From a virus, in the IMG/VR virus record IMGVR_UViG_3300045999_009251, positions 1 to 47,193 of that record: 47,193 nt of DNA; one strand, written 5' to 3'. Of the stretch, positions 3,484-44,647 are shown in pieces. Every line of letters begins with the position of its first letter. The stretch's first letter is position 1. The position numbers were made by a program, and so were the translations under genes. Under the pieces are notes generated by a model. It ran no database searches. It saw nothing but the letters and a program-made list of their open reading frames with translations, and was not told where the DNA came from.

Positions 3484-3951
3484 ATGTCAGAAAAATGGTT
3501 TACGTACGAAGACGGAAATGTAACTGAATACGATTCTGTAGATAAATTTCCTGAAAAATGTGTTGGTTTTATTTACAAAATTACCAACATTAGAACAGGA
3601 AAATTTTATATCGGTAGAAAATCTCTTTTTTCAAACGTTAAGAAAAAGCTAACTAAGAAAGAGCTTGCAGAACATACTGGACCTGGTAAAAAACCTACAA
3701 AAAAACTCGTAACTAAAGAGTCTGACTGGGAAAACTATTGGGGATCCAACAAAGTATTACTACAGGAGATTAAAGACAGTGGAACAAAACATTTCCGTAG
3801 AGAAGTACTTAAATTCTGCTTCAATAAAAAACAGCTAACCTACTGGGAAGTACACTTTCAGTGCGTGAACGAAGTACTTCTATCTGATAGATCCTATAAC
3901 GATAATGTTCTTGCCAAGTTCTTCAGAAGAGATTTGGTAATATCAGAGTAA
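3484..3951 (+). CDS. GIY-YIG endonuclease (Seg-like homing nuclease)
   Basis: A 155-residue protein with the GIY-YIG core: GFIYKI at residues 28-33 and FYIGRKS at 41-47, the arginine being the usual catalytic one. Glu in WEVHFQ near residue 122 is the likely metal ligand. A W-x-N-Y-W-G-S-N-K string lies between. This layout matches the Seg-type free-standing homing nucleases of T4-like phages. It stands between structural genes and the primase, a typical intergenic position for a mobile nuclease gene. No repeats or intron boundaries are visible around it. Start: ATG 12 bases after the upstream stop, preceded by a T-rich run. Confidence 0.8.
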   Translation: MSEKWFTYEDGNVTEYDSVDKFPEKCVGFIYKITNIRTGKFYIGRKSLFSNVKKKLTKKELAEHTGPGKKPTKKLVTKESDWENYWGSNKVLLQEIKDSGTKHFRREVLKFCFNKKQLTYWEVHFQCVNEVLLSDRSYNDNVLAKFFRRDLVISE

Positions 3952-3984
3952 GTCCTTATACTTACAGTTATAGAATTAGTGTAC

Positions 3985-4911
3985 ATGGAGCAATCCCGCC
4001 TAGTCCTTGGACTCTTACATAGTGTTTTAGGTAAATCTAAACCATCTACCAAAGGCAACCACGCCTTTCACTGTCCTTTTTGTAAACATCACAAACCTAA
4101 GCTTGAAATAGATCCTAAGAGCGGTTTTTTTCATTGCTGGACTTGTGAACCTGCTACTAAAGGACGTAGCTTAGTATCGTTACTGAGAAAACTACATGCA
4201 AGTCCTGCACAGATTACCGAAATGAAAACCTACTTCCCTGATAGTAGGGGAGAGGTAGAAGAGAAGAAGTATGCAGTCGTACAATTACCGAAAGAATTTT
4301 TATCTTTATCGCAGAGCAGTACCAAATTAACCTACCGTCAAGCTAAAGCTTATGTTAAAAGCCGGGGGATAACCGAAGAGGATATTTTAAAGTACAACAT
4401 AGGTTACTGTGAGAAAGGAAGGTATGCTAATTCTATTATAGTACCTTCTTACGACAAGAACGGCCGTATAAATTATTTTATTTCTAGATCGTTTGAAAAG
4501 GATCCAGCACGTAAATACAATGCACCCTCTTGCAATAAAAACGAATTAATAGGCCTTGAATACTTCATAAACTGGAACGTACCCGTAATTTTATGTGAAG
4601 GTATATTTGACGCTATTGCTTTGAAGCGAAATGCTGTTCCGTTGTTCGGTAAAACCATACCGCGTGCCCTCATGCTCAAGCTTGTAGAGAATAATGTTAA
4701 GACTGTATATCTTGCACTCGATAACGATGCACTAAAAGAGTCTTTCAACTATGCTCTTGAATTAATCAACTTAGGAAAAGACGTCTACCTTATTGAACTC
4801 GGAAGTAAAGATCCTTCAGAAATAGGGTTTGAAGAAACAACTAAGTATTTACATACCGCCAAGCAGCTTACCTTCGGTGAACTGTTACTTAAAAAGATGC
4901 AATTATGTTAA
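3985..4911 (+). CDS. DnaG-type DNA primase
   Basis: A 308-residue primase counted from the ATG at 3985 (a GTG two codons upstream is less likely). The N-terminal zinc-binding domain has C30-x2-C33 and H50-C51-x2-C54. The TOPRIM domain follows, with the EG..DA motif at 205-210 and the LDND motif at 245-248, which bind the catalytic metals, and DPSE at 276-279. It lacks a DnaB-interaction domain of normal DnaG length, so it resembles the compact phage primases such as T4 gp61 that work with a separate helicase. Its stop overlaps the start of the exonuclease gene by 7 bases, so the two are probably translated together. Confidence 0.9.
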   Translation: MEQSRLVLGLLHSVLGKSKPSTKGNHAFHCPFCKHHKPKLEIDPKSGFFHCWTCEPATKGRSLVSLLRKLHASPAQITEMKTYFPDSRGEVEEKKYAVVQLPKEFLSLSQSSTKLTYRQAKAYVKSRGITEEDILKYNIGYCEKGRYANSIIVPSYDKNGRINYFISRSFEKDPARKYNAPSCNKNELIGLEYFINWNVPVILCEGIFDAIALKRNAVPLFGKTIPRALMLKLVENNVKTVYLALDNDALKESFNYALELINLGKDVYLIELGSKDPSEIGFEETTKYLHTAKQLTFGELLLKKMQLC

Positions 4912-35085: not shown

Positions 35086-38000
35086 ATGGCAAACGAATTT
35101 GTAGCTAGAAACGGCTTAATTGCGCTCGATAACTCTCAAATTACCGGCTCCCTAAACGTATCCGGCGGCATTACAGGATCTCTACTCGGTACTGCTTCAT
35201 TTGCCGTATCTGCCTCTTGGGCACCAGGAGCAGGCGCTGCTTTTCCGTTTACAGGAAGTGCTCTTATAACCGGCAGTCTCGGAGTAACAGGAAGTTTATC
35301 AGTAACAGGAAGTGATGCTACTATTAATAATATCACAGTCGGTAGAGGTGGCGGATCAGTTGTCACTAACACAGCGATAGGCGTTTGTGCTTTAAATTCT
35401 AACACTACCGGTGATCGTAACGTAGCCATCGGCTATAATGCATTAAGATGCAATACCGCCGGTAACATTAACTTTGCCGCCGGTAATGGAGCAATGTTCA
35501 ATAATACTACCGGTAATTTTAATACAGCTATTGGATACAATGCTTTATGTAACAATACTACCGGTATTACCAATACAGCTATTGGATACAATGCTTTATG
35601 TAACAACACTGTCGGTAGCGATAATATAGGAATAGGATCTCAAGCATTAAAAACAAATCAACAAGGTATCACAAATATAGCTATAGGTAATGCTACTCTA
35701 GCCAATGCTAATTGCAGTACTAACAATATAGCTATCGGACACACTGCCTTAGGTGCTAATTATTCATCTGATGGTAATATAGCAATCGGTGTTTTCGCTC
35801 TACAATATGCACATACCGGTAATTTTAATACAGTTGTAGGTAGGAATGCAGCTTCGTATCTAGGCAGCAACGTCGAAATATCCAAAAATACAGTACTAGG
35901 TGCATACGCACTACGCGGCTTTACTAATAGTACAACTGCTAACGCTAATATAGCAGTCGGGTATAAAGCTCTAACTGCTGCTTGTAATACACACTTTAAC
36001 ATAGCAATCGGGTATAAAGCTATGGGACAGGGGTATGGTGGTTCAACCCCTAACATAGCAATAGGTAATGAATCCGGCTGTCAGTTCGGATGCTATGCCG
36101 GTGCTAATACAGCTGTAGGGCATTGTACGTTGAGGGTTAATACTCTAGGAGGCGGTAATACTGCAATAGGTTATCAAGCATTAAAAAGTAGCAACTCCAC
36201 CGGTAATACAGCTGTTGGTCAAGAAGCATTATACACTAATAGTACCGGACAAAACAACGTAGCATTAGGACGATTTGCATCAAGAAGCAATACTAGCGGC
36301 AACAACAACGTAGCAATGGGCTACAACGCCCTTCGTGGCAATACTGCAACTAATAATAGTACGGCTATTGGACATCTTGCTCTATGTAATAATTCCGGAG
36401 CAGCTAATACAGCTGTCGGTGCCTATACAATGATAGGTAGCGTGACTGGTATATCTAACGTAGCAGTAGGAGTTAATGCTTTAAGGTGTAATATTGGCGG
36501 GGATAATAACGTAGGAACAGGTAATTGTGCTCTATATAGAAATACAGGAGGTAGAGGTAATATAGGAGCCGGATCAAATGCAATGTTTTTTAACACCACA
36601 GGTTGTTGGAATGTAGCTGTAGGTTCTAGTGCTTTACAAAGTAATACAACTGGAGGTCAGCAAGTAGCGATCGGATTTGAAGCCCTTCGTACTTCTAACT
36701 TCGGATCTACATCTGCTACCGCAAACGTAGCTGTAGGTTATAGAGCATTATGTGGAAATACTACCGGTGCCTGTAATACTAGCCTCGGTACAAGAACTCT
36801 TGAAGCTAATACTACCGGTGCTTGTAATACAGCAGTAGGTATGTCTGCTCTAAGAACCAACACTGGAGGCATATGTAATACTGCAGTCGGAAATGATGCC
36901 CTACTTAACAACACAACAGGAGTTGATAACACAGCGGTAGGAACATGGGCTCTACGCTCTAATACGACTGGTTTTAATAATACAGCAGTAGGTGTAAGAG
37001 CTTTAGCAACTAATACAATCGGTGATAATAACATAGCTATTGGCAGGGAGACTTTATATTTTAATACTACAGGTAGATGTAACGTAGCTGTAGGCGGTGC
37101 TGCCTTATTCAATAACGTTACAGGCCTTAACAACGTAGCTATAGGTAGAGAAGCTCTCTGTGCTTCTAACTTCGGATCTACTTCTGCTACCGCAAACGTA
37201 GCTGTAGGTTATAGAGCGCTAAGAGCTAACACTACAGGTACTTGCAACGTAGCTGTTGGTACAAGAGCTCTTGAAGCTAATACTACCGGTGCTTGCAATA
37301 CTGCAATAGGCTTAAGAGCTCTTGAGGCTAATACTGCCGGCACAACTAATACAGCCGTAGGCGCATGCACTTTGATAACCAATACTACATGCTTTGGTAA
37401 CACAGCAATCGGTTTTGGTGCATTACGTCTAAATACTGACGCCGGTAATACAGCTGTCGGAGCTCTATCCCTATATACTAACTCTACAGGTTTCCAAAAC
37501 GTAGCAGTAGGTAATAGCGCACTAAGACTTAATACAGGAGGTAATAGTAACGTAGCTGTAGGCGGTGCTGCTTTATACGGTAATACAACGGGTGTTAAAA
37601 ACACTGCCGTAGGATGGAGTGCCGCAAGAGCTACAACAACAGGAGCGGATAATGTAGCTGTCGGGTATAATGCACTGAGATGTAATACAACAGGAGGTCA
37701 GCAAGTAGCTATTGGCTACGAAGCCCTTTGTCTCTCAAACTTCGGAGCTACTTCTGCTACCGCAAACGTAGCCGTTGGTTATAGAGCATTAAGAGCTAGT
37801 ACTACAGGCACTAGCAATACAGCAGTGGGTACAAGAGCTCTTGAAACCACCAGTACTGGTGTTGATAACGTAGCAGTAGGATTCCAAGCTCTCGGAACCA
37901 ATACAACCGGAGGTCAACAGGTAGCTATCGGTTATCAAGCGCTCTTCACCTCTAACTTCGCATCCACTTCTGCTACCGCAAACGTAGCTGTCGGCTATAG

Positions 38001-39027
38001 AGCATTATGTGCTAATACAACAGGCGCTAGCAATACGGCACTCGGTACAAGAGCTCTCGAAGCTAATACTACCGGTGTTAACAGTGTAGCTATAGGTGCT
38101 CAAGCCCTTCGTGCTAACACGTCTGGAGGTCAAAATACTGCTGTAGGAAACTGTGCTATGCGCGATACTACTACTGGTAGTAGTAATACTGCTTTAGGTA
38201 ATTTAGCTATGCTCTGCAATACAGAAGGAGGTACCAACGTAGCTATAGGATTTGTTAGTTTATGTTTGAATACTACCGGTAACAGAAATGTAGCAGTAGG
38301 TGCAGGTGCCTTAGTCCAAAATACAACCGGTGGATGTCAAGTAGCCGTTGGTTATCGAGCCCTGCGTGCTACTAATACAGGAACAACTTCTGCAAGTGCT
38401 AACGTGGCAGTAGGTTACTATGCACTTAACAACAATAGTACAGGTGTTTGTAACACAGCTTTTGGTACTCGCGCTCTAAGGGATAATACAACAGGTATCT
38501 GTAATACAGCGGTCGGATTACAAGCTAACGCAGCCTTAACTGGAGCAGTAAATAATACAATAGCTGTAGGTGCTGCATCAGCTACAACGGCTACTACAGG
38601 ACATACAGTCTGGGGTAATGCCGGTAACAACGTCTGTAACTGCGTATATGCTGCCTGGACTAACGTTTCCGACTGCCGCGATAAAGCAAATATTAAAGCC
38701 CTACCCGATAATCTAGGATTACGCTTCATTAAGAAGCTCAAACCAGTATCTTTCAATTCAGATCACCGTGATCTATACGTTACAGAATGTAAGTGCGAGT
38801 ATGGGGTTAAAGACGGTACCCTTGCCGGAACAAAAGAACATTACGGTCTCATTGCTCAAGATCTTAGAGAGGTACTAGATGAATTAGGAACTAAATTTGA
38901 TGCTTTAGGTCATGATGAAGAAAAAGATGCTTACCGTCTAACCTACGAAGAACTTATAGCTCCAATTATTAAAGCTATCCAAGAACTAGAAGAAAGAGTA
39001 ACAACATTAGAAAATAAAGTTGAATAA
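35086..39027 (+). CDS. Hyper-repetitive tail fibre with C-terminal Peptidase_S74-type chaperone
   Basis: A 1313-residue fibre. Residues 1-90 are ITGS beta units (LNVSGGITGSLLGTASFAVSAS). Residues about 95-1170 are roughly sixty units, mostly 17 residues, of the form N-(T/V)-A-(V/I)-G-x-x-A-L-x-x-N-T-T-G-x-x, like the beta-roll of YadA-type adhesin heads. Many units contain Cys. The end is an intramolecular chaperone of the Peptidase_S74 type: SDCRDKANIKAL with the Ser-Lys pair, then HYGLIAQDLREVLDEL, then a trimeric coiled coil RVTTLENKVE. This domain helps trimerise the fibre and then cuts itself off. It is probably the main receptor-binding fibre. Confidence 0.9.
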   Translation: MANEFVARNGLIALDNSQITGSLNVSGGITGSLLGTASFAVSASWAPGAGAAFPFTGSALITGSLGVTGSLSVTGSDATINNITVGRGGGSVVTNTAIGVCALNSNTTGDRNVAIGYNALRCNTAGNINFAAGNGAMFNNTTGNFNTAIGYNALCNNTTGITNTAIGYNALCNNTVGSDNIGIGSQALKTNQQGITNIAIGNATLANANCSTNNIAIGHTALGANYSSDGNIAIGVFALQYAHTGNFNTVVGRNAASYLGSNVEISKNTVLGAYALRGFTNSTTANANIAVGYKALTAACNTHFNIAIGYKAMGQGYGGSTPNIAIGNESGCQFGCYAGANTAVGHCTLRVNTLGGGNTAIGYQALKSSNSTGNTAVGQEALYTNSTGQNNVALGRFASRSNTSGNNNVAMGYNALRGNTATNNSTAIGHLALCNNSGAANTAVGAYTMIGSVTGISNVAVGVNALRCNIGGDNNVGTGNCALYRNTGGRGNIGAGSNAMFFNTTGCWNVAVGSSALQSNTTGGQQVAIGFEALRTSNFGSTSATANVAVGYRALCGNTTGACNTSLGTRTLEANTTGACNTAVGMSALRTNTGGICNTAVGNDALLNNTTGVDNTAVGTWALRSNTTGFNNTAVGVRALATNTIGDNNIAIGRETLYFNTTGRCNVAVGGAALFNNVTGLNNVAIGREALCASNFGSTSATANVAVGYRALRANTTGTCNVAVGTRALEANTTGACNTAIGLRALEANTAGTTNTAVGACTLITNTTCFGNTAIGFGALRLNTDAGNTAVGALSLYTNSTGFQNVAVGNSALRLNTGGNSNVAVGGAALYGNTTGVKNTAVGWSAARATTTGADNVAVGYNALRCNTTGGQQVAIGYEALCLSNFGATSATANVAVGYRALRASTTGTSNTAVGTRALETTSTGVDNVAVGFQALGTNTTGGQQVAIGYQALFTSNFASTSATANVAVGYRALCANTTGASNTALGTRALEANTTGVNSVAIGAQALRANTSGGQNTAVGNCAMRDTTTGSSNTALGNLAMLCNTEGGTNVAIGFVSLCLNTTGNRNVAVGAGALVQNTTGGCQVAVGYRALRATNTGTTSASANVAVGYYALNNNSTGVCNTAFGTRALRDNTTGICNTAVGLQANAALTGAVNNTIAVGAASATTATTGHTVWGNAGNNVCNCVYAAWTNVSDCRDKANIKALPDNLGLRFIKKLKPVSFNSDHRDLYVTECKCEYGVKDGTLAGTKEHYGLIAQDLREVLDELGTKFDALGHDEEKDAYRLTYEELIAPIIKAIQELEERVTTLENKVE
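35370..38600 (+). repeat. About sixty tandem 51-bp coding repeats with a higher-order unit
   Basis: The 51-bp unit codes NTAVGxxALxxNTTGxx. Copies differ mainly at third codon positions and in the x residues. A longer unit, with GGQQVAIGxEAL, SNFGSTSATANVAVGYRAL, recurs around 36655, 37690 and 37915, with shorter or diverged versions near 37140 and 38330. Confidence 0.88.
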
Positions 39028-39055: not shown

Positions 39056-39712
39056 ATGAGAAAAGTTTTGATAGGAACACCGTCTTATGATGGAAGAATA
39101 GACGTATGGTTTGCCAACTCTCTTCTCAGGACAGTTAAGATAGCAGAAAAAGAAAATATTTTTGTACACGCTATCTACACCTCTTACGATTCATTAATTC
39201 AGCGTGCTAGAAATAGCCTAGTCCGTATTGCCCTACAAGGAGGGTATGACGATTTATTTTTCATAGATTCAGACTGCGAATGGGAGCCGGAATGGTTTTT
39301 CAGGTTATTAGATAGGCCCGAGCATATAGTGGGCGGTGCTTTAATTAAAAAATCTGAGAAAGAAGGATACACTGTAAAATTAGTAGACAAAAATCTAAAA
39401 TGGTCTGAAGATAAAAAGCTAATAGAAGTAGACGGGGTAGGAACAGGATTTATGAAAATATCTAGATTTGCACTTGAAAAGCTTTGGGAGGTATCTGATC
39501 CTTACATGTCTGAAGGAGAAGAACATAGAATGATCTGCGATATAAAAGTAGAAAACGGCAATCTGATTTCAGAAGATTACATCTTAGGAAACAAATGGAG
39601 AGAGTTAGGGTATAAGGTATGGCTCGATCCTACCATAACCCTCAATCACATTGGGGTTAAGAAATACAAAGGCGATTTTAATAGATTTATAAACAAACTT
39701 GGATATGCTTGA
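39056..39712 (+). CDS. Glycosyltransferase, GT-A fold
   Basis: A 218-residue enzyme. It opens KVLIGTPSYDGRIDVWFANS and has YDSLIQRARNSLVRIAL, then LFFIDSDCEWEPEWF near 73-87, where D-S-D is the metal/nucleotide-sugar DxD motif. A later EDYILGNKWRELGYKVWLDP matches the acceptor half of GT2/Anp1-like phage transferases. Donor and acceptor sugars cannot be read. It overlaps the following gene by 8 bases and begins the modification island. Confidence 0.82.
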   Translation: MRKVLIGTPSYDGRIDVWFANSLLRTVKIAEKENIFVHAIYTSYDSLIQRARNSLVRIALQGGYDDLFFIDSDCEWEPEWFFRLLDRPEHIVGGALIKKSEKEGYTVKLVDKNLKWSEDKKLIEVDGVGTGFMKISRFALEKLWEVSDPYMSEGEEHRMICDIKVENGNLISEDYILGNKWRELGYKVWLDPTITLNHIGVKKYKGDFNRFINKLGYA

Positions 39713-40694
39713 TAAACCAATGGGCGGTACAGAATTAATGTACGAAGAACTTATGCGTCGTCTTCCTGAAGAGGTAAAAGAGAGAGTATCAATTTTTACC
39801 TACCCAGCTTATGCTGATACTTTAAAACCGACTATCTACTGGAATCAGCTATCTTACGATCAACCCGCTGTACAGCTTCTTTCTGATCCTGCAAATATAG
39901 AAAAAATAGACCAGTTTGTGTTTGTAAGTTACTGGCAAGCTGAACAGTTTAGAAAACTTTTCGGAGTTCCGGGCTTTAAAACAGAGGTAATAAAAAATGC
40001 CTGTATCGGTGTAGAGCAGAGACAATCTGGAAAACGAGATAAAGTCAAGCTATGCTACACCTCTACTCCTTGGCGAGGATTAGACGTATTGCTAGCAGCG
40101 TGGGAAAAATTAAATCCGCAAGACTGTGAACTACATGTATTCTCTAGCACTAAAATTTACGGCAAAGACTTCGCTATCTCTACAGCAGGAAACTACCAAG
40201 ATTTATTTGACAAATGCGAACAGCTACCTGGTGTAGTTTATAGAGATTATGTATCTAATGAAGATCTTAGGAAAGAGCTTCCTACGTTTGATATTTTAGC
40301 CTACCCGAACACTTTTGAAGAAACTTCTTGTATTGCTGTTATTGAAGCTCTTTCAGCAGGTTTGAGAGTGGTTACATCCGATCTAGGCGCTTTACCGGAA
40401 ACAACCGAAGGATGGGCTAGAATGTATCCCTATCTAATGGATAAAGAAAAGCACGCCGAAGTATTTGCTCAAATTCTAGCAGAAGAAATTGAAAAGATTA
40501 AATCTGGAGAATTAGATACACACCTTGACCAGCAAAAATTAATTTATGCTCCAAGATGGAGCTGGAATGAAAGAATAAATCAATGGACAAACTTTTTAAA
40601 TACGTTCATCCGAAACGTGTCCTTGACATCGGAGCCTGTCTCGGAAACTTCACCAAGCAAGTCTACTTCCGATATCCAGAATGTAGGATTATAA
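39705..40694 (+). CDS. Glycosyltransferase, GT4-like (GT-B fold)
   Basis: A 329-residue enzyme from the ATG at 39705; the TTG two codons upstream is less likely. It shows VFVSYWQAEQFRKLFG, TSTPWRGLDVLLAAWEKL near 118-135, and FEETSCIAVIEALSAGLRVVTSD near 205-227, whose E-x7-E contacts the donor nucleotide sugar. This is the GT4 group-1 layout. The C-terminal 37 residues are Ser/Thr-rich, out of character, and overlap the next gene by 112 bases, suggesting a late 3' extension. Confidence 0.85.
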   Translation: MLDKPMGGTELMYEELMRRLPEEVKERVSIFTYPAYADTLKPTIYWNQLSYDQPAVQLLSDPANIEKIDQFVFVSYWQAEQFRKLFGVPGFKTEVIKNACIGVEQRQSGKRDKVKLCYTSTPWRGLDVLLAAWEKLNPQDCELHVFSSTKIYGKDFAISTAGNYQDLFDKCEQLPGVVYRDYVSNEDLRKELPTFDILAYPNTFEETSCIAVIEALSAGLRVVTSDLGALPETTEGWARMYPYLMDKEKHAEVFAQILAEEIEKIKSGELDTHLDQQKLIYAPRWSWNERINQWTNFLNTFIRNVSLTSEPVSETSPSKSTSDIQNVGL

Positions 40695-41206
40695 TGGTAG
40701 AGGCTAATAGGAATTGCGAGCCAGCCCTCCGTCTGCTCGGAAAGCCTTACGATATTATAGCCCTCTCCGATAAAGAAGGCTTTGCAGATTTGTACGTTGA
40801 AAAGATTAATCCAACCGCAACCGGTGCCTCCCTCTACAAAGAAAACACTGAATGGTATGCAGAAGGAAAATACGAGACTATAAGAACACCCACTGCAACT
40901 CTCGATAGCCGGAATTATTTTAATGGAGAACCTATAGATCTTATTAAAATGGACGTACAAGGTTCTGAATTAGATATTCTAAAAGGCGGTGAAAAAACCA
41001 TGAAAAATACGTCTTATGCACTTCTAGAACTGTCTCTGGTTCAATATAATCAAGGAGCTCCTTTGATTGGAGAGGTGGTAGATAAGATGATAGAATACGG
41101 GTTTTGCATGGTAGATATTTTAGAATATCACAGTTTTCCTCACCTCTACGATGGAGCAATCTTTCAGCTTGATATTCTCTTTAAAAAACTCCCCTATTTA
41201 TTATAA
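40583..41206 (+). CDS. FkbM-family methyltransferase
   Basis: A 207-residue SAM-dependent methyltransferase. RVLDIGACLGNFT at 12-24 binds SAM, VEANRNCEPAL follows, and LIKMDVQGSELDILKGG near 119-135 is the FkbM hallmark. These enzymes usually O-methylate sugars. The SAM motif lies so close to the ATG at 40583 that no later start is possible, so the 112-base overlap with the GT4 gene is real. It probably methylates a glycan made by the neighbouring transferases. Confidence 0.87.
   Translation: MDKLFKYVHPKRVLDIGACLGNFTKQVYFRYPECRIIMVEANRNCEPALRLLGKPYDIIALSDKEGFADLYVEKINPTATGASLYKENTEWYAEGKYETIRTPTATLDSRNYFNGEPIDLIKMDVQGSELDILKGGEKTMKNTSYALLELSLVQYNQGAPLIGEVVDKMIEYGFCMVDILEYHSFPHLYDGAIFQLDILFKKLPYLL
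41195..41203 (+). promoter_or_regulatory. Late-promoter-like motif TATTTATTA
   Basis: Perfect copy overlapping the end of the FkbM gene, 15 bases before the ATG at 41219. Confidence 0.6.
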
Positions 41207-41599: not shown

Positions 41600-42421
41600 A
41601 TGCCTAAAAAGATTTTTTACAACAGCTCCCTACCTAGAGCAGGATCTACACTCATTCAAAACATCCTAGGACAAAATCCTGATATTCATACAACGCCTAC
41701 CTCTGGTTTGTATGAAATGTTAGTTGCCTGTAGAACTATTTTCACTGATGGGATTGAGTTTAAAGCTCAAAACACCACTCAAATGGAGACCGGATTTAGG
41801 TCTCTTTTAAAGTCCGCTATCTACGGTTTTTATGAACCGCTTACGGACAAACCTTACGTAGTAGATAAGTGCAGAGGATGGGGATCAGAGTACGAGTTTA
41901 TTAATGCATTCGATCCTAATCCTAAGATCATTTGCATGATTAGAGATATTAGAGCAATCTATGCTTCGTTAGAGAAGAAATATAGACAGAATCCTTTAAT
42001 TGATCACCATATTGCAAACTGGGGTAACTTAACAGGTACTACAACGGATAAGAGAATGACGGTATGGTCTGCTAATCCGCCCATCGGCCCTTCGATGGAT
42101 AGACTCTATCAAATACTCGTTCAGGGATTACATAAGAACATACTTTTTATTAAGTTCGAAGAACTTTGCCTGGATCCAGATACACAACTAAAGCGTATCT
42201 ACGAATATCTTGAGCTTCCTTATTATAAACATGACTTTAAAAATATTCCGCAAATTACACACGAAGATGATAAATGGTATGGAATATTTGGCGATCATAT
42301 TATTAGAGGGGAGCTTAAGCCTGTAAAAAATGACTTCTACGAAGTACTAGGAGTTAATGCCTGTAAAATGCTGGAGGATAATTACAGGTGGTTCTTTAAC
42401 GACTTTGGATATCAAATTTAA
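41600..42421 (+). CDS. Sulfotransferase (PAPS-dependent)
   Basis: A 273-residue protein. KIFYNSSLPRAGSTLIQNIL at 4-23 is the 5'-phosphosulfate-binding loop of PAPS-dependent sulfotransferases, and MIRDIRAIYASLEKKYR near 113-130 supplies the Arg/Ser of the 3'-phosphate-binding site. The late ILFIKFEELCLDP string is also typical. It would move sulfate from PAPS to a sugar or tyrosine hydroxyl. The APS kinase at 43386 would supply the donor. A 42-base gap separates it from the upstream gene and 5 bases from the next. Confidence 0.87.
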   Translation: MPKKIFYNSSLPRAGSTLIQNILGQNPDIHTTPTSGLYEMLVACRTIFTDGIEFKAQNTTQMETGFRSLLKSAIYGFYEPLTDKPYVVDKCRGWGSEYEFINAFDPNPKIICMIRDIRAIYASLEKKYRQNPLIDHHIANWGNLTGTTTDKRMTVWSANPPIGPSMDRLYQILVQGLHKNILFIKFEELCLDPDTQLKRIYEYLELPYYKHDFKNIPQITHEDDKWYGIFGDHIIRGELKPVKNDFYEVLGVNACKMLEDNYRWFFNDFGYQI

Positions 42422-42426
42422 ACATA

Positions 42427-43389
42427 ATGCAAGTAGGTTACAAAACAGAAACAGATTTATTAAAAGAAGAAAAAGTAGCGGTTTTGGAAGACAGATCAAA
42501 TAACAGCTCCAAGTATGTTGTATGGCATATTGAGGGCGGACTAGGAAAAAATGTTGCTGCAACAGCACTCATTTCATCTGTTAAGAAAAAATACGCAGAC
42601 AGGAAATTAATATTAGTAGTTTCTTATCCAGAAGTTTTTTTGAATCACCCTGACATTTTCAGAGTATATAGAGTGGGGATGGTTTCTTACTTTTACGACG
42701 ATTTTATTAAAGGAAAAGATACTATTATTTTTAGACATGAGCCTTACTTTCAGTCTGATCATATTACAAAGAAAAAACACTTGATTGAAAACTGGTGTGA
42801 TCTTCTTGGCATCAAATATGAAAAACAGCAGCCGGCTCTTTACCCGAATCTTATACAGAGAGATATAATGTATAATTGGAAGAGAGAGAAGCCAACTATG
42901 ATAATTCACTCCAATGGAGGGCCTCTGCAACAAGACTCGGTCTATTCTTGGACTCGAGACATGCCATACGGTATTGTACAAGCACTCGTAGATAGGTATG
43001 CAAACAATTACCATATCATTCAGGTAGGTAGACACGCAAATCACTCAATACCTGGAATTGAGTTCGTAAATCAGCCTATGACCAATCACGAGCTGTTCTC
43101 TATGCTTGCTCTTTCTGAAAAACGCGTGCTAATCGATTCTTCTTTACAGCATGCAGCAGCAGCTATGAAGCAAAAATCTACCGTACTCTGGGTAGGAACT
43201 TCTCCTAAAAATTTCGGATACGATATGCATACAAACCTCGTAGCCAAGCCTCCAAAAGGAAATACTAAGATGGTTGATGCTTATCTATTTGATTATTCTT
43301 TTGATGGAATCGCTCACGAATGTCCTTATAATGATGTAAGTGAGATGTTTGATCTAAACGATATTTACAAAGCAATCGATAGAACATGA
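42427..43389 (+). CDS. Glycosyltransferase, GT9/heptosyltransferase-like (GT-B)
   Basis: A 320-residue protein. VVWHIEGGLGKNVAATALI near 31-49 matches the GGxGD(x)xxxTP opening of GT9 enzymes, and LIDSSLQHAAAAMKQKSTVLWVG near 235-257 matches the donor site (D-x5-H-x-AAA-x(4)-P/T). A middle QVGRHANHSIPG is consistent. It probably transfers a sugar to a glycan built with the two earlier transferases. The stop overlaps the APS kinase start by 4 bases, so the two are coupled. Confidence 0.72.
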   Translation: MQVGYKTETDLLKEEKVAVLEDRSNNSSKYVVWHIEGGLGKNVAATALISSVKKKYADRKLILVVSYPEVFLNHPDIFRVYRVGMVSYFYDDFIKGKDTIIFRHEPYFQSDHITKKKHLIENWCDLLGIKYEKQQPALYPNLIQRDIMYNWKREKPTMIIHSNGGPLQQDSVYSWTRDMPYGIVQALVDRYANNYHIIQVGRHANHSIPGIEFVNQPMTNHELFSMLALSEKRVLIDSSLQHAAAAMKQKSTVLWVGTSPKNFGYDMHTNLVAKPPKGNTKMVDAYLFDYSFDGIAHECPYNDVSEMFDLNDIYKAIDRT

Positions 43390-43838
43390 TTATAGTTTTA
43401 TTTGGACAGCCCCACTGCGGTAAATCTACTCTAGCTAACGCGTTAGAAAATATTAACACCTGCAATATAGATGGAGATCAGCTACGAGATCTTTTTAAAA
43501 ATAAAGATTTTAGCCGGCAAGGAAGACTCCGTAATTTAAATCGGGCTAGTGATATTGCTGTTTATATGAATAGTTTAGGTTTAAATGTAATCCTGTCGTT
43601 AGTATATCCTTATAAAGAAGCTAGAGACTACTTAAATAGCCTCAACGATAACGTAAAGTGGGTGTACCTAACATACAAAGGAGAAAGAGGTAGAGAAAAA
43701 TTTCATGTAGAAGATTTTGAAATTCCAACAGAAGAGCGTATATTACATTTAGACACTTCTGAACTGTTAATTGCGGAATGTGTCGATGCAATAAAACGTT
43801 ATACTAATGAAGAACTACCTAGCAAAAGCGCAGAGTAA
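43386..43838 (+). CDS. Adenylylsulfate (APS) kinase
   Basis: A 150-residue kinase converting APS and ATP to PAPS. GQPHCGKST at 7-15 is the P-loop, NIDGDQLRDLF at 27-37 matches the CysC (L)DGDxxR motif, and DFSRQGRLRNLNRASDIA at 41-58 matches the CysC FSxxDRxENIRR segment, although the Asp is a Gly here. A shortened C-terminus makes it smaller than bacterial CysC (about 200). It is linked with the sulfotransferase nearby and overlaps the next gene by 32 bases. Confidence 0.82.
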   Translation: MIIVLFGQPHCGKSTLANALENINTCNIDGDQLRDLFKNKDFSRQGRLRNLNRASDIAVYMNSLGLNVILSLVYPYKEARDYLNSLNDNVKWVYLTYKGERGREKFHVEDFEIPTEERILHLDTSELLIAECVDAIKRYTNEELPSKSAE

Positions 43839-44193
43839 GTCCGGTAAGTGGGCGATGTTTATTGGACGCTGGCAACCCTGGCATCCTGGTCACCGTTGGC
43901 TTATTGATCAAGCTCTCGAAGAAGGAAAGAAAGTACTCCTATGTATTCGGGATGTTCCTGTAGATGAAAAAAATCCCTGGACAGCTGAGGAAATTCTTAT
44001 GAATCTATCTAACGAGCTGATAGATCTAATAAGAGATGATAAACTACGTATAATAAAGATTCCAGATATCGAATCTATTAATATCGGAAGAGGAGTTGGA
44101 TATGATGTTATCGAATACGTACCCCCGCAAGACGTACATGACATATCTGCTACAAAGATTAGAGAACAAATGAAAGCTGAAGGGAAGTTATGA
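43807..44193 (+). CDS. GRWQP-type nucleotidyltransferase, possible sulfate-activation partner
   Basis: A 128-residue HxGH-superfamily enzyme. MFIGRWQPWHPGHRWLIDQAL at 17-37 (key residues GRWQP-x-HxGH) and DISATKIREQM near 112-122 form the nucleotide site; IGRGVGYDVIEYVPP lies between. Similar proteins are recalled next to or fused with APS kinase domains, so an adenylyltransferase step in sulfate activation (ATP + sulfate to APS) is possible, though sugar-phosphate cytidylyl transfer is also possible. An alternative ATG at 43855 would remove the overlap with the kinase gene. Its stop overlaps the next start as ATGA-type coupling. Confidence 0.7.
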   Translation: MKNYLAKAQSKSGKWAMFIGRWQPWHPGHRWLIDQALEEGKKVLLCIRDVPVDEKNPWTAEEILMNLSNELIDLIRDDKLRIIKIPDIESINIGRGVGYDVIEYVPPQDVHDISATKIREQMKAEGKL

Positions 44194-44423
44194 TAGACGT
44201 TAAGGTAAGGTGGAATACACAATGTACAGATAATCATAATTTCTGGCGAATTATAATCGACGGACAAGAGCGAATATGTTCAAACGTAATATTTCAACTA
44301 CCTGTCCATACTACTCGTGATATAGTTTACGATTCTTTGAGAAATCAGGAAGTAGATAAACATCACATTAGCTGCCAAGCAGTTGAAGTTATTTGGAAAG
44401 GAGACGTAGTAATAGTAAGATGA
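44190..44423 (+). CDS. Small conserved-looking protein of the sulfation island
   Basis: A 77-residue protein with VRWNTQCTDNHNFWRIIIDGQ, then VIFQLPVHTTRDIVYDSL and HISCQAVEVIW. I recall this from phage and bacterial clusters beside the GRWQP nucleotidyltransferase and have no function for it. Conserved-looking Cys, His and Trp residues suggest a compact binding domain. It is overlapped by 4 bases at both ends, so it is an integral member of the transcription unit. Confidence 0.6.
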   Translation: MIDVKVRWNTQCTDNHNFWRIIIDGQERICSNVIFQLPVHTTRDIVYDSLRNQEVDKHHISCQAVEVIWKGDVVIVR

Positions 44424-44647
44424 TAGTAGAGAAGAAACGACATATAGCTAAAACTATTAGTTACCGGGTTATCAGCACCCTAATCGGATTTATAGTCATG
44501 TGGCTAGTTTCTGGATCTGTGAAAGTAGGAGCAGCATTCGGGATCGCCGAGTTAGTTTATAAACCAATCCAGTACTATATTCACGAAAGAATCTGGTATA
44601 GATGGGTTACTTACGGTCTTAAGAAAGAAGAAGATAGAAAAGCTTAA
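44420..44647 (+). CDS. DUF2061-like membrane protein
   Basis: A 75-residue protein counted from the ATG at 44420, which overlaps the upstream stop as ATGA; a more distal start adds nine charged residues and is less likely. It shows KTISYRVISTLIGFIVMWLVSG, AFGIAELVYKPIQYYIHERIW and a charged end, the DUF2061 pattern of two membrane helices. From memory, DUF2061 proteins often sit beside sulfate-assimilation genes (cysC, cysDN) in bacteria, which fits the APS kinase here. Its activity is unknown; the inner membrane is the expected site. Confidence 0.75.
   Translation: MIVEKKRHIAKTISYRVISTLIGFIVMWLVSGSVKVGAAFGIAELVYKPIQYYIHERIWYRWVTYGLKKEEDRKA

Follow-up and report, generated by a model that had tools for sequence, protein, structure and literature searches.

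The entry step of sulfate metabolism is catalysed by ATP sulfurylases of two described families. Sat (PF01747) belongs to the wider HxGH nucleotidyltransferase superfamily and is often paired or fused with a kinase for adenosine 5'-phosphosulfate (APS), and the CysDN type, which accompanies the APS kinase CysC in assimilatory sulfate reduction, consists of a PP-loop protein, CysD, and a GTPase, CysN. Phage-borne sulfotransferases (PMC10580990) and phage cysH (PMC9301287) have already been published, as far as the available excerpts of both papers go; in the excerpts of the former, the role of the phage sulfotransferases is called unclear and the synthesis of their donor, 3'-phosphoadenosine 5'-phosphosulfate (PAPS), is not described. 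Here we analysed a virus record of 47,193 bases from IMG/VR (the window, that is, the whole stretch of DNA under study), which carries terminase, portal, major head protein and tail sheath genes, together with three plus-strand genes for a sulfotransferase, a kinase and a small nucleotidyltransferase (NT). We consider it likely that these three form a compact phage cassette, in which NT, as a so far unrecognised type of ATP sulfurylase, would convert ATP and sulfate to APS and pyrophosphate (PPi), the kinase would convert APS and ATP to PAPS, and the sulfotransferase would pass the sulfate of PAPS to some acceptor, possibly with help at the membrane from a small DUF2061 protein. The chemistry of this pathway is known; novelty would lie in the enzyme family that opens it and in its presence in phages. 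Searches of open-licence PMC papers (subscription papers and preprints lay outside them) turned up nothing on PAPS synthesis by phages, nor any description of NT as acting on APS.

The sequence-only reading of the window had placed a PAPS-type sulfotransferase, an APS kinase and a possible adenylyltransferase at 41600, 43386 and 43807, and open reading frames (ORFs) are indeed present there, all with Pfam scores over the cut-offs. The sulfotransferase (41600..42421, +; 273 aa) scores 65.7 bits against Sulfotransfer_3 (cut-off 27), has protein-tyrosine sulfotransferase 1 as its best PDB match (E 1.1e-5) and carries the motifs LPRAGSTL at residue 11 and RDIRAIYAS at residue 115, which we take to resemble the motifs by which PAPS sulfotransferases bind the 5'- and the 3'-phosphate, respectively. 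It is of the same family as the sulfotransferases of OM43 phages and of the Synechococcus phages S-SRM01 and S-SKS1 (31.0% and 28.9% identity), and in most of the virus loci described below a relative of it precedes NT by 0.4-1.4 kb. The kinase (43386..43838, +; 150 aa) matches PF01583 (APS_kinase) over residues 2-89 with 45.5 bits (cut-off 21.1). A profile search of the PDB returned 2yvu at the top (5.9e-16), followed by further APS kinases, with the Sat-associated entries 2gks and 1m8p among the matches, and comparison of the AlphaFold2 model (predicted local distance difference test, pLDDT, 88.9) by VIA-align gave the APS kinase 7yq1 as the best match (Z 20.6, root-mean-square deviation (rmsd) 1.7, 143 aligned) and a gluconate kinase at Z 16.9. 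As such, the protein groups with CysC-type APS kinases by Pfam, by PDB profile and by fold, as had been supposed earlier. The positions DGD29-31, R34, R47, N50 and P75 are invariant in 46 aligned kinases, and DGDxxR and RxxN hold the residues that contact APS in APS kinases; the cellular kinase partners of NT carry NAD and RxxQ in place of DGD and RxxN. Based on these profiles and the predicted model, we propose that the kinase may phosphorylate APS to PAPS.

NT (43807..44193, +; 128 aa) lies within the HxGH nucleotidyltransferase superfamily, passing the CTP_transf_like cut-off (29.6 bits, cut-off 21) and retaining H26, G28 and H29, which are invariant in 18 phage and cellular members along with G20, R21, Q23, P24, R48, P57, P86, G94, R95, G98, S114, A115, T116 and R119. 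While the reaction proposed for NT is that of Sat, NT is a far smaller protein and shows GRWQPWHPGH at the position of the Sat motif QxRNPxHxxH; with 11.2 bits against PF01747 (cut-off 24.3), a Sat-type ATP sulfurylase was rejected. A CysDN-type enzyme was rejected as well, neither the CysD nor the CysN models of Pfam and NCBIfam being matched. Instead, the closest relatives in sequence and fold are archaeal nicotinamide mononucleotide adenylyltransferases (NMNATs) and pantetheine-phosphate adenylyltransferases (PPATs): NMNATs topped the PDB profile search, with 33% identity to 1m8j over 79 columns, and the predicted model (pLDDT 91.6) matched a PPAT at Z 10.1 and the NMNAT 1ej2 at Z 9.8 (rmsd 3.0, 110 aligned), which are effectively tied. 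Since the nearest solved relatives are of these two kinds, the chemistry of NT is likely adenylyl transfer, with the acceptor to be sought from context. The earlier suggestion of an adenylyltransferase agrees with this, profiles and fold grouping NT with NMNAT/PPAT and not strictly with cytidylyltransferases. However, NT differs from archaeal NMNATs in falling short of the equivalog cut-off of TIGR01527 (37.7 bits, cut-off 181.2), in conserved motifs of its own, GRGxGY and ISATKIR, and in forming a branch distinct from NMNAT and Nudix rows in our tree, with moderate support. In the same tree, which was built from few columns, with a bootstrap that had not settled and deeper forks moderately supported (row L213 being the same gene as L175), the NTs of SAR11 apr loci and those of cys operons each formed a supported group of their own, and the branch holding the cellular sequences excluded 47 of the 51 phage rows. 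At present, models score members of the NT family as NMN-adenylyltransferase- or cytidylyltransferase-like.

Relatives of these genes are widespread in virus contigs, the kinase query giving 24 loci and the NT scan 433 stretches, the 80 best of which were used further, and these many conserved relatives argue that the gene set is not a product of chance. Across 99 virus loci (many being one contig fetched twice, with L100, the window's own record, excluded), relatives were found of NT in 99, of the kinase in 97, of the DUF2061 protein in 86, of a GT9-like glycosyltransferase in 66 and of the sulfotransferase in 65. Among 59 distinct NT sequences, 39 had at least 3 kb upstream and at least 1.5 kb downstream, and here the kinase was present in 39, DUF2061 in 37 and the sulfotransferase in 30. 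The kinase counts of both sets are biased, as L001-L024 had been fetched with the kinase itself, and the linkage test was therefore repeated from a neutral tail-sheath bait, with 80 loci of which 42 were excluded because their upstream sequence was short or their start identical, and 38 distinct ones with at least 3.5 kb upstream were retained. NT was present in 18 of them, accompanied by DUF2061 in 18, the kinase in 17 and the sulfotransferase in 15, and the 20 loci without NT held no kinase, sulfotransferase or DUF2061 (Fisher p 5e-8 for the linkage of NT and sulfotransferase, uncorrected for relatedness). This test is free of the kinase-bait bias, but its hidden Markov models (HMMs) came from NT-bearing loci and the relatives are not independent. 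When the sulfotransferase served as bait, 16 of 25 loci carried the kinase, NT and DUF2061. Taken with the tail-sheath counts, this indicates that the block is mostly all-or-none, yet that the sulfotransferase can stand without the donor genes.

The small membrane protein of this block (44420..44647, +; PF09834, 61.3 bits, cut-off 23.1), which the sequence-only reading did not mention, likely starts at the ATG at 44420, while the ORF list gives a TTG at 44393. DUF2061 was also considered as a general sulfur marker and rejected, PF09834 occurring in 45 of 200 Pseudomonadota genomes; in a crude motif scan of 1.5 kb on each side of 30 DUF2061 loci, no sulfur gene was flagged. The link between DUF2061 and sulfur holds only for this block.

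The cellular relatives of NT offer the context from which its acceptor may be read. A scan with the NT alignment of one genome per species over about 85,000 prokaryote species, using search patterns that favour close relatives, gave 68 loci, 67 in Pelagibacteraceae (SAR11) and one in a Crocinitomicaceae metagenome-assembled genome (MAG). The SAR11 NTs stand directly before aprM-aprB-aprA in 64 of these 67 loci, with a median gap of 53 bp to aprM. In L118 (NT at 3710-4090, 126 aa), the curated cut-offs are exceeded by both AprA and AprB, and a membrane protein with weak likeness to QmoC is encoded at the aprM position; of the three loci without aprA, L109 stops with its contig after aprM. Within the alphaproteobacterial class, 289 genomes were searched with 16 matches, 8 of them with E < 1e-25, and this added G303, G205 and G073, in which, by sequence, CbiX, CobA, CysI, CysH, DUF2061, kinase and NT follow one another in a single row. 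The families were confirmed for the row of G303 only, with CysI at 709 bits (cut-off 457) and CysH at 253.7 bits (cut-off 154); the DUF2061 protein inside the cysI-cysH operon of L189 scored 76.5 bits, and the operon of L189-L191 showed neither CysD nor CysN. Judged from its gene content, the G303-type row is an assimilatory sulfate reduction operon with the kinase and NT in the place of CysC and CysDN, respectively, so that they occupy the same slot beside CysH and CysI as the known enzymes. In the Crocinitomicaceae (Bacteroidota) MAG, the kinase is followed by NT, a 77-aa ORF and an ABC (ATP-binding cassette) transporter ATPase, with two sulfotransferases 2.5-4 kb further on. Elsewhere, strong matches were confined to the query genomes, namely G050 among 7 matches in 395 Bacteroidota genomes and G001 and G165 among 20 matches in 398 Pseudomonadota genomes; the weak ones covered mainly the N-terminal part and usually belonged to longer frames, as expected of NMNAT and Nudix proteins. 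The phage block, aprMBA, the cysI-cysH operon and the Bacteroidota sulfotransferase cluster have APS or PAPS in common and hardly anything more. Of the route proposed earlier from sulfate to a sulfated, methylated glycan, the part leading from sulfate through APS and PAPS to the sulfotransferase is supported by the linkage conserved among phages and by the settings of NT in cells, but the sulfated, methylated glycan at its end is not.

For SAR11, these contexts meet a gap that is already in print, that of aprBA without ATP sulfurylase (PMC5069961, PMC10356861, PMC12636525). In the available excerpts of these papers, P. ubique lacks cysDNCHIJ and sat (PMC5069961) and ATP sulfurylase is missing from most SAR11 (PMC10356861); the text of PMC5069961 has cysC absent, yet its Table 3 lists cysC in aprA-bearing strains. 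We searched 50 of the 68 NT genomes for Sat and CysD, and extended the set to 57 with the 8 strongest matches of the class search (one shared). Sat was found in one and CysD in none of the 50, the completeness of these genomes being unstated; since aprA lies over its cut-off in 47 of the 49 SAR11 genomes G001-G049, incompleteness alone hardly explains this scarcity of Sat. In SAR11, the reaction of NT would run in reverse, AprBA forming APS from sulfite and AMP and NT forming ATP and sulfate from APS and PPi, thus filling the place of the missing ATP sulfurylase. APS is common to all of these contexts, but none of them proves the direction or the co-substrate, which leaves room for an enzyme that handles APS otherwise, either as an APS:phosphate adenylyltransferase (APS + Pi -> ADP + sulfate) or in APS salvage, with the phage taking APS from its host and requiring the kinase alone. 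We regard this as very improbable, given that enzymes of the NMNAT/PPAT fold class normally move AMP from ATP with release of pyrophosphate and that G303 and G205, two of the genomes with the cysI-cysH operon, yielded neither Sat nor a true CysD and would then have nothing else to make APS.

Several observations weigh against our proposal that NT and the kinase supply PAPS. The profile and fold neighbours of NT are NMNAT and PPAT, with no ATP sulfurylase among them, although the absence of ATP sulfurylases among the fold matches listed is no sign that the folds differ. The kinase lies far under the NCBIfam apsK equivalog cut-off (TIGR00455; 42.4 versus 138.7 bits), and for this reason we name it APS-kinase-like rather than a proven CysC and infer its substrate. 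Nine of the 25 sulfotransferase-bait loci lack kinase and NT (and DUF2061 too), and 9 of the 39 well-flanked phage loci lack a recognised sulfotransferase, a low-threshold HMM finding none in them. In the cellular genomes, the SAR11 loci L131 and L158 have TauE directly after NT and no apr genes at the locus, and their genomes, G030 and G1099, keep NT with no aprA over the cut-off; the NTs of G257, G165 and G236 have no clear sulfur neighbours. Finally, Sat is present in 2 of the 57 NT genomes (G002 and G073) and a CysD-like protein in one (G236), the latter below the curated cut-off; the weak CysD match in G303 is CysH itself.

That both the kinase and NT fall under their equivalog cut-offs, and that APS-kinase-like enzymes with other substrates are known, could also point to a PAPS-like donor carrying another group, for which NT would couple some other small acid to a nucleotide and the 3'-phosphate would come from the kinase. 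A model for this is the synthesis of methyl phosphoramidate in Campylobacter, where a CysC-like kinase acts on cytidine diphosphoramidate. However, the Campylobacter nucleotidyltransferase is of a different fold class, and the cellular relatives of the window's genes stand beside AprBA, CysH and CysI, enzymes that act on APS, PAPS and sulfite, so that we consider such a donor improbable.

The remaining points against sulfate activation come from isolated Stenotrophomonas and Xanthomonas phages, in which kinase and NT domains are fused in one protein (PHROG 10255, 'kinase'). Like the window's pair, these proteins combine both domains, but the window's genes are separate, and the fused gene follows a NADAR gene in phages Bhz60 and AhaSv (92.6 and 93.3 bits), which hints at nicotinamide adenine dinucleotide (NAD) or ADP-ribose. 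Neighbourhoods were examined in three of the five phage records, Bhz60, AhaSv and DLP_6, and in DLP_6 no sulfotransferase was found among the tested neighbours of the fused gene. In Stenotrophomonas phage Bhz60, a Sulfotransfer_4 gene (26.2 bits, cut-off 22.8) lies just before NADAR and two genes before the fusion, and a sulfotransferase is thus near even a NADAR-side fusion; the corresponding score in AhaSv, 19.6, is below the cut-off of 22.8. This row of Sulfotransfer_4, NADAR and fused kinase-NT (L265:3564-5327) is an unusual combination of sulfation with ADP-ribose genes, and one that is testable in a cultured phage system. The fused forms depart from the others at several conserved positions, with RxxQ in the kinase and GRD or GRQ in NT, and could have another substrate.

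The NADAR neighbour, the NMNATs that lead the profile and PDB matches of NT, and the fact that phages are known to rebuild NAD together speak for NAD salvage, with the kinase as a nicotinamide riboside kinase, NT as an NMN adenylyltransferase in a NadR-like pair of reversed order, and the sulfotransferase as an unrelated neighbour. We nevertheless find this unlikely. NT is conserved beside aprMBA, cysI-cysH and sulfotransferases, a separate NadD lies over its cut-off in 40 of the 57 NT genomes, and the kinase is closest in fold to APS kinases. In addition, NT lacks some 40-50 residues relative to its archaeal NMNAT matches, with the profile alignment stopping at its residue 90. Sulfate activation by NT and the kinase remains our preferred explanation.

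The genes from 41600 to 44647 are packed like an operon. A weakly GT9-like glycosyltransferase gene (42427..43389, +; PF01075, E 0.2, below cut-off) follows the sulfotransferase after 5 nt and overlaps the kinase by 4 nt, kinase and NT overlap by 32 nt, and overlaps of 4 nt join NT to the gene for a 77-aa protein (44190..44423, +; relatives in 24 of the 99 virus loci) and the latter to DUF2061. The 77-aa ORF resembles an ORF of equal length after NT in the Bacteroidota MAG (L101:1223-1456), the two having KHHI[ST]C in common by eye. The sequence-only reading had the three enzymes interleaved with glycosyltransferases and an FkbM methyltransferase, which is correct for the single GT9-like gene between them, whereas FkbM and the two other glycosyltransferases, GT2-like and GT4 by Pfam, lie upstream (39056..41206, +). 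A glycan as the target is not supported, as FkbM is present in 11, GT4 in 12 and GT2 in 8 of the 99 loci against 97 for the kinase, and only the GT9-like gene travels along; FkbM, GT4 and GT2 are probably variable cargo outside the unit. Upstream of the cassette, at 35086-39027, the window encodes a 1313-aa protein rich in NTAIGYNAL-type repeats, likely a tail fibre.

A few further observations concern other loci. In L045 and L075, among the nine phage loci without a recognised sulfotransferase, some neighbours open with loops that are sulfotransferase-like by eye but have no Pfam match, in a test that covered ten proteins. Both Sat genes of the NT genomes (L169 in G002, L196 in G073) adjoin a pyruvate-kinase-like gene by eye, with an APS-kinase-like gene nearby in L169 and a NeuB-like gene in L196, and these regions are perhaps surface-polysaccharide islands. 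In L198 and L199 (SAR11 genomes G036 and G029), a gene for a 427-aa protein, whose N-terminus RHG.SLL.RLLDGHPDIA appears sulfotransferase-like by eye, precedes an APS-kinase-like gene, making another sulfation island possible. A separate APS-kinase-like gene is also present in G030, which has NT and no aprA over the cut-off.

Taken together, we favour on balance a broader view in which NT founds a third ATP sulfurylase family, NMNAT-like and far smaller than Sat, that fills the SAR11 gap, activates sulfate in the reduced alphaproteobacterial operon and forms, with the kinase, a two-gene PAPS synthase of phages. SAR11 are among the most abundant bacteria of the sea, and, if this view is true, a 126-aa enzyme beside aprM would close their gap and change the view of sulfite oxidation and energy gain in these organisms. 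The entry step of sulfate metabolism would then have a third enzyme family, and the phage cassette would represent a self-contained PAPS supply, giving the sulfotransferases of aquatic phages a route to their donor.

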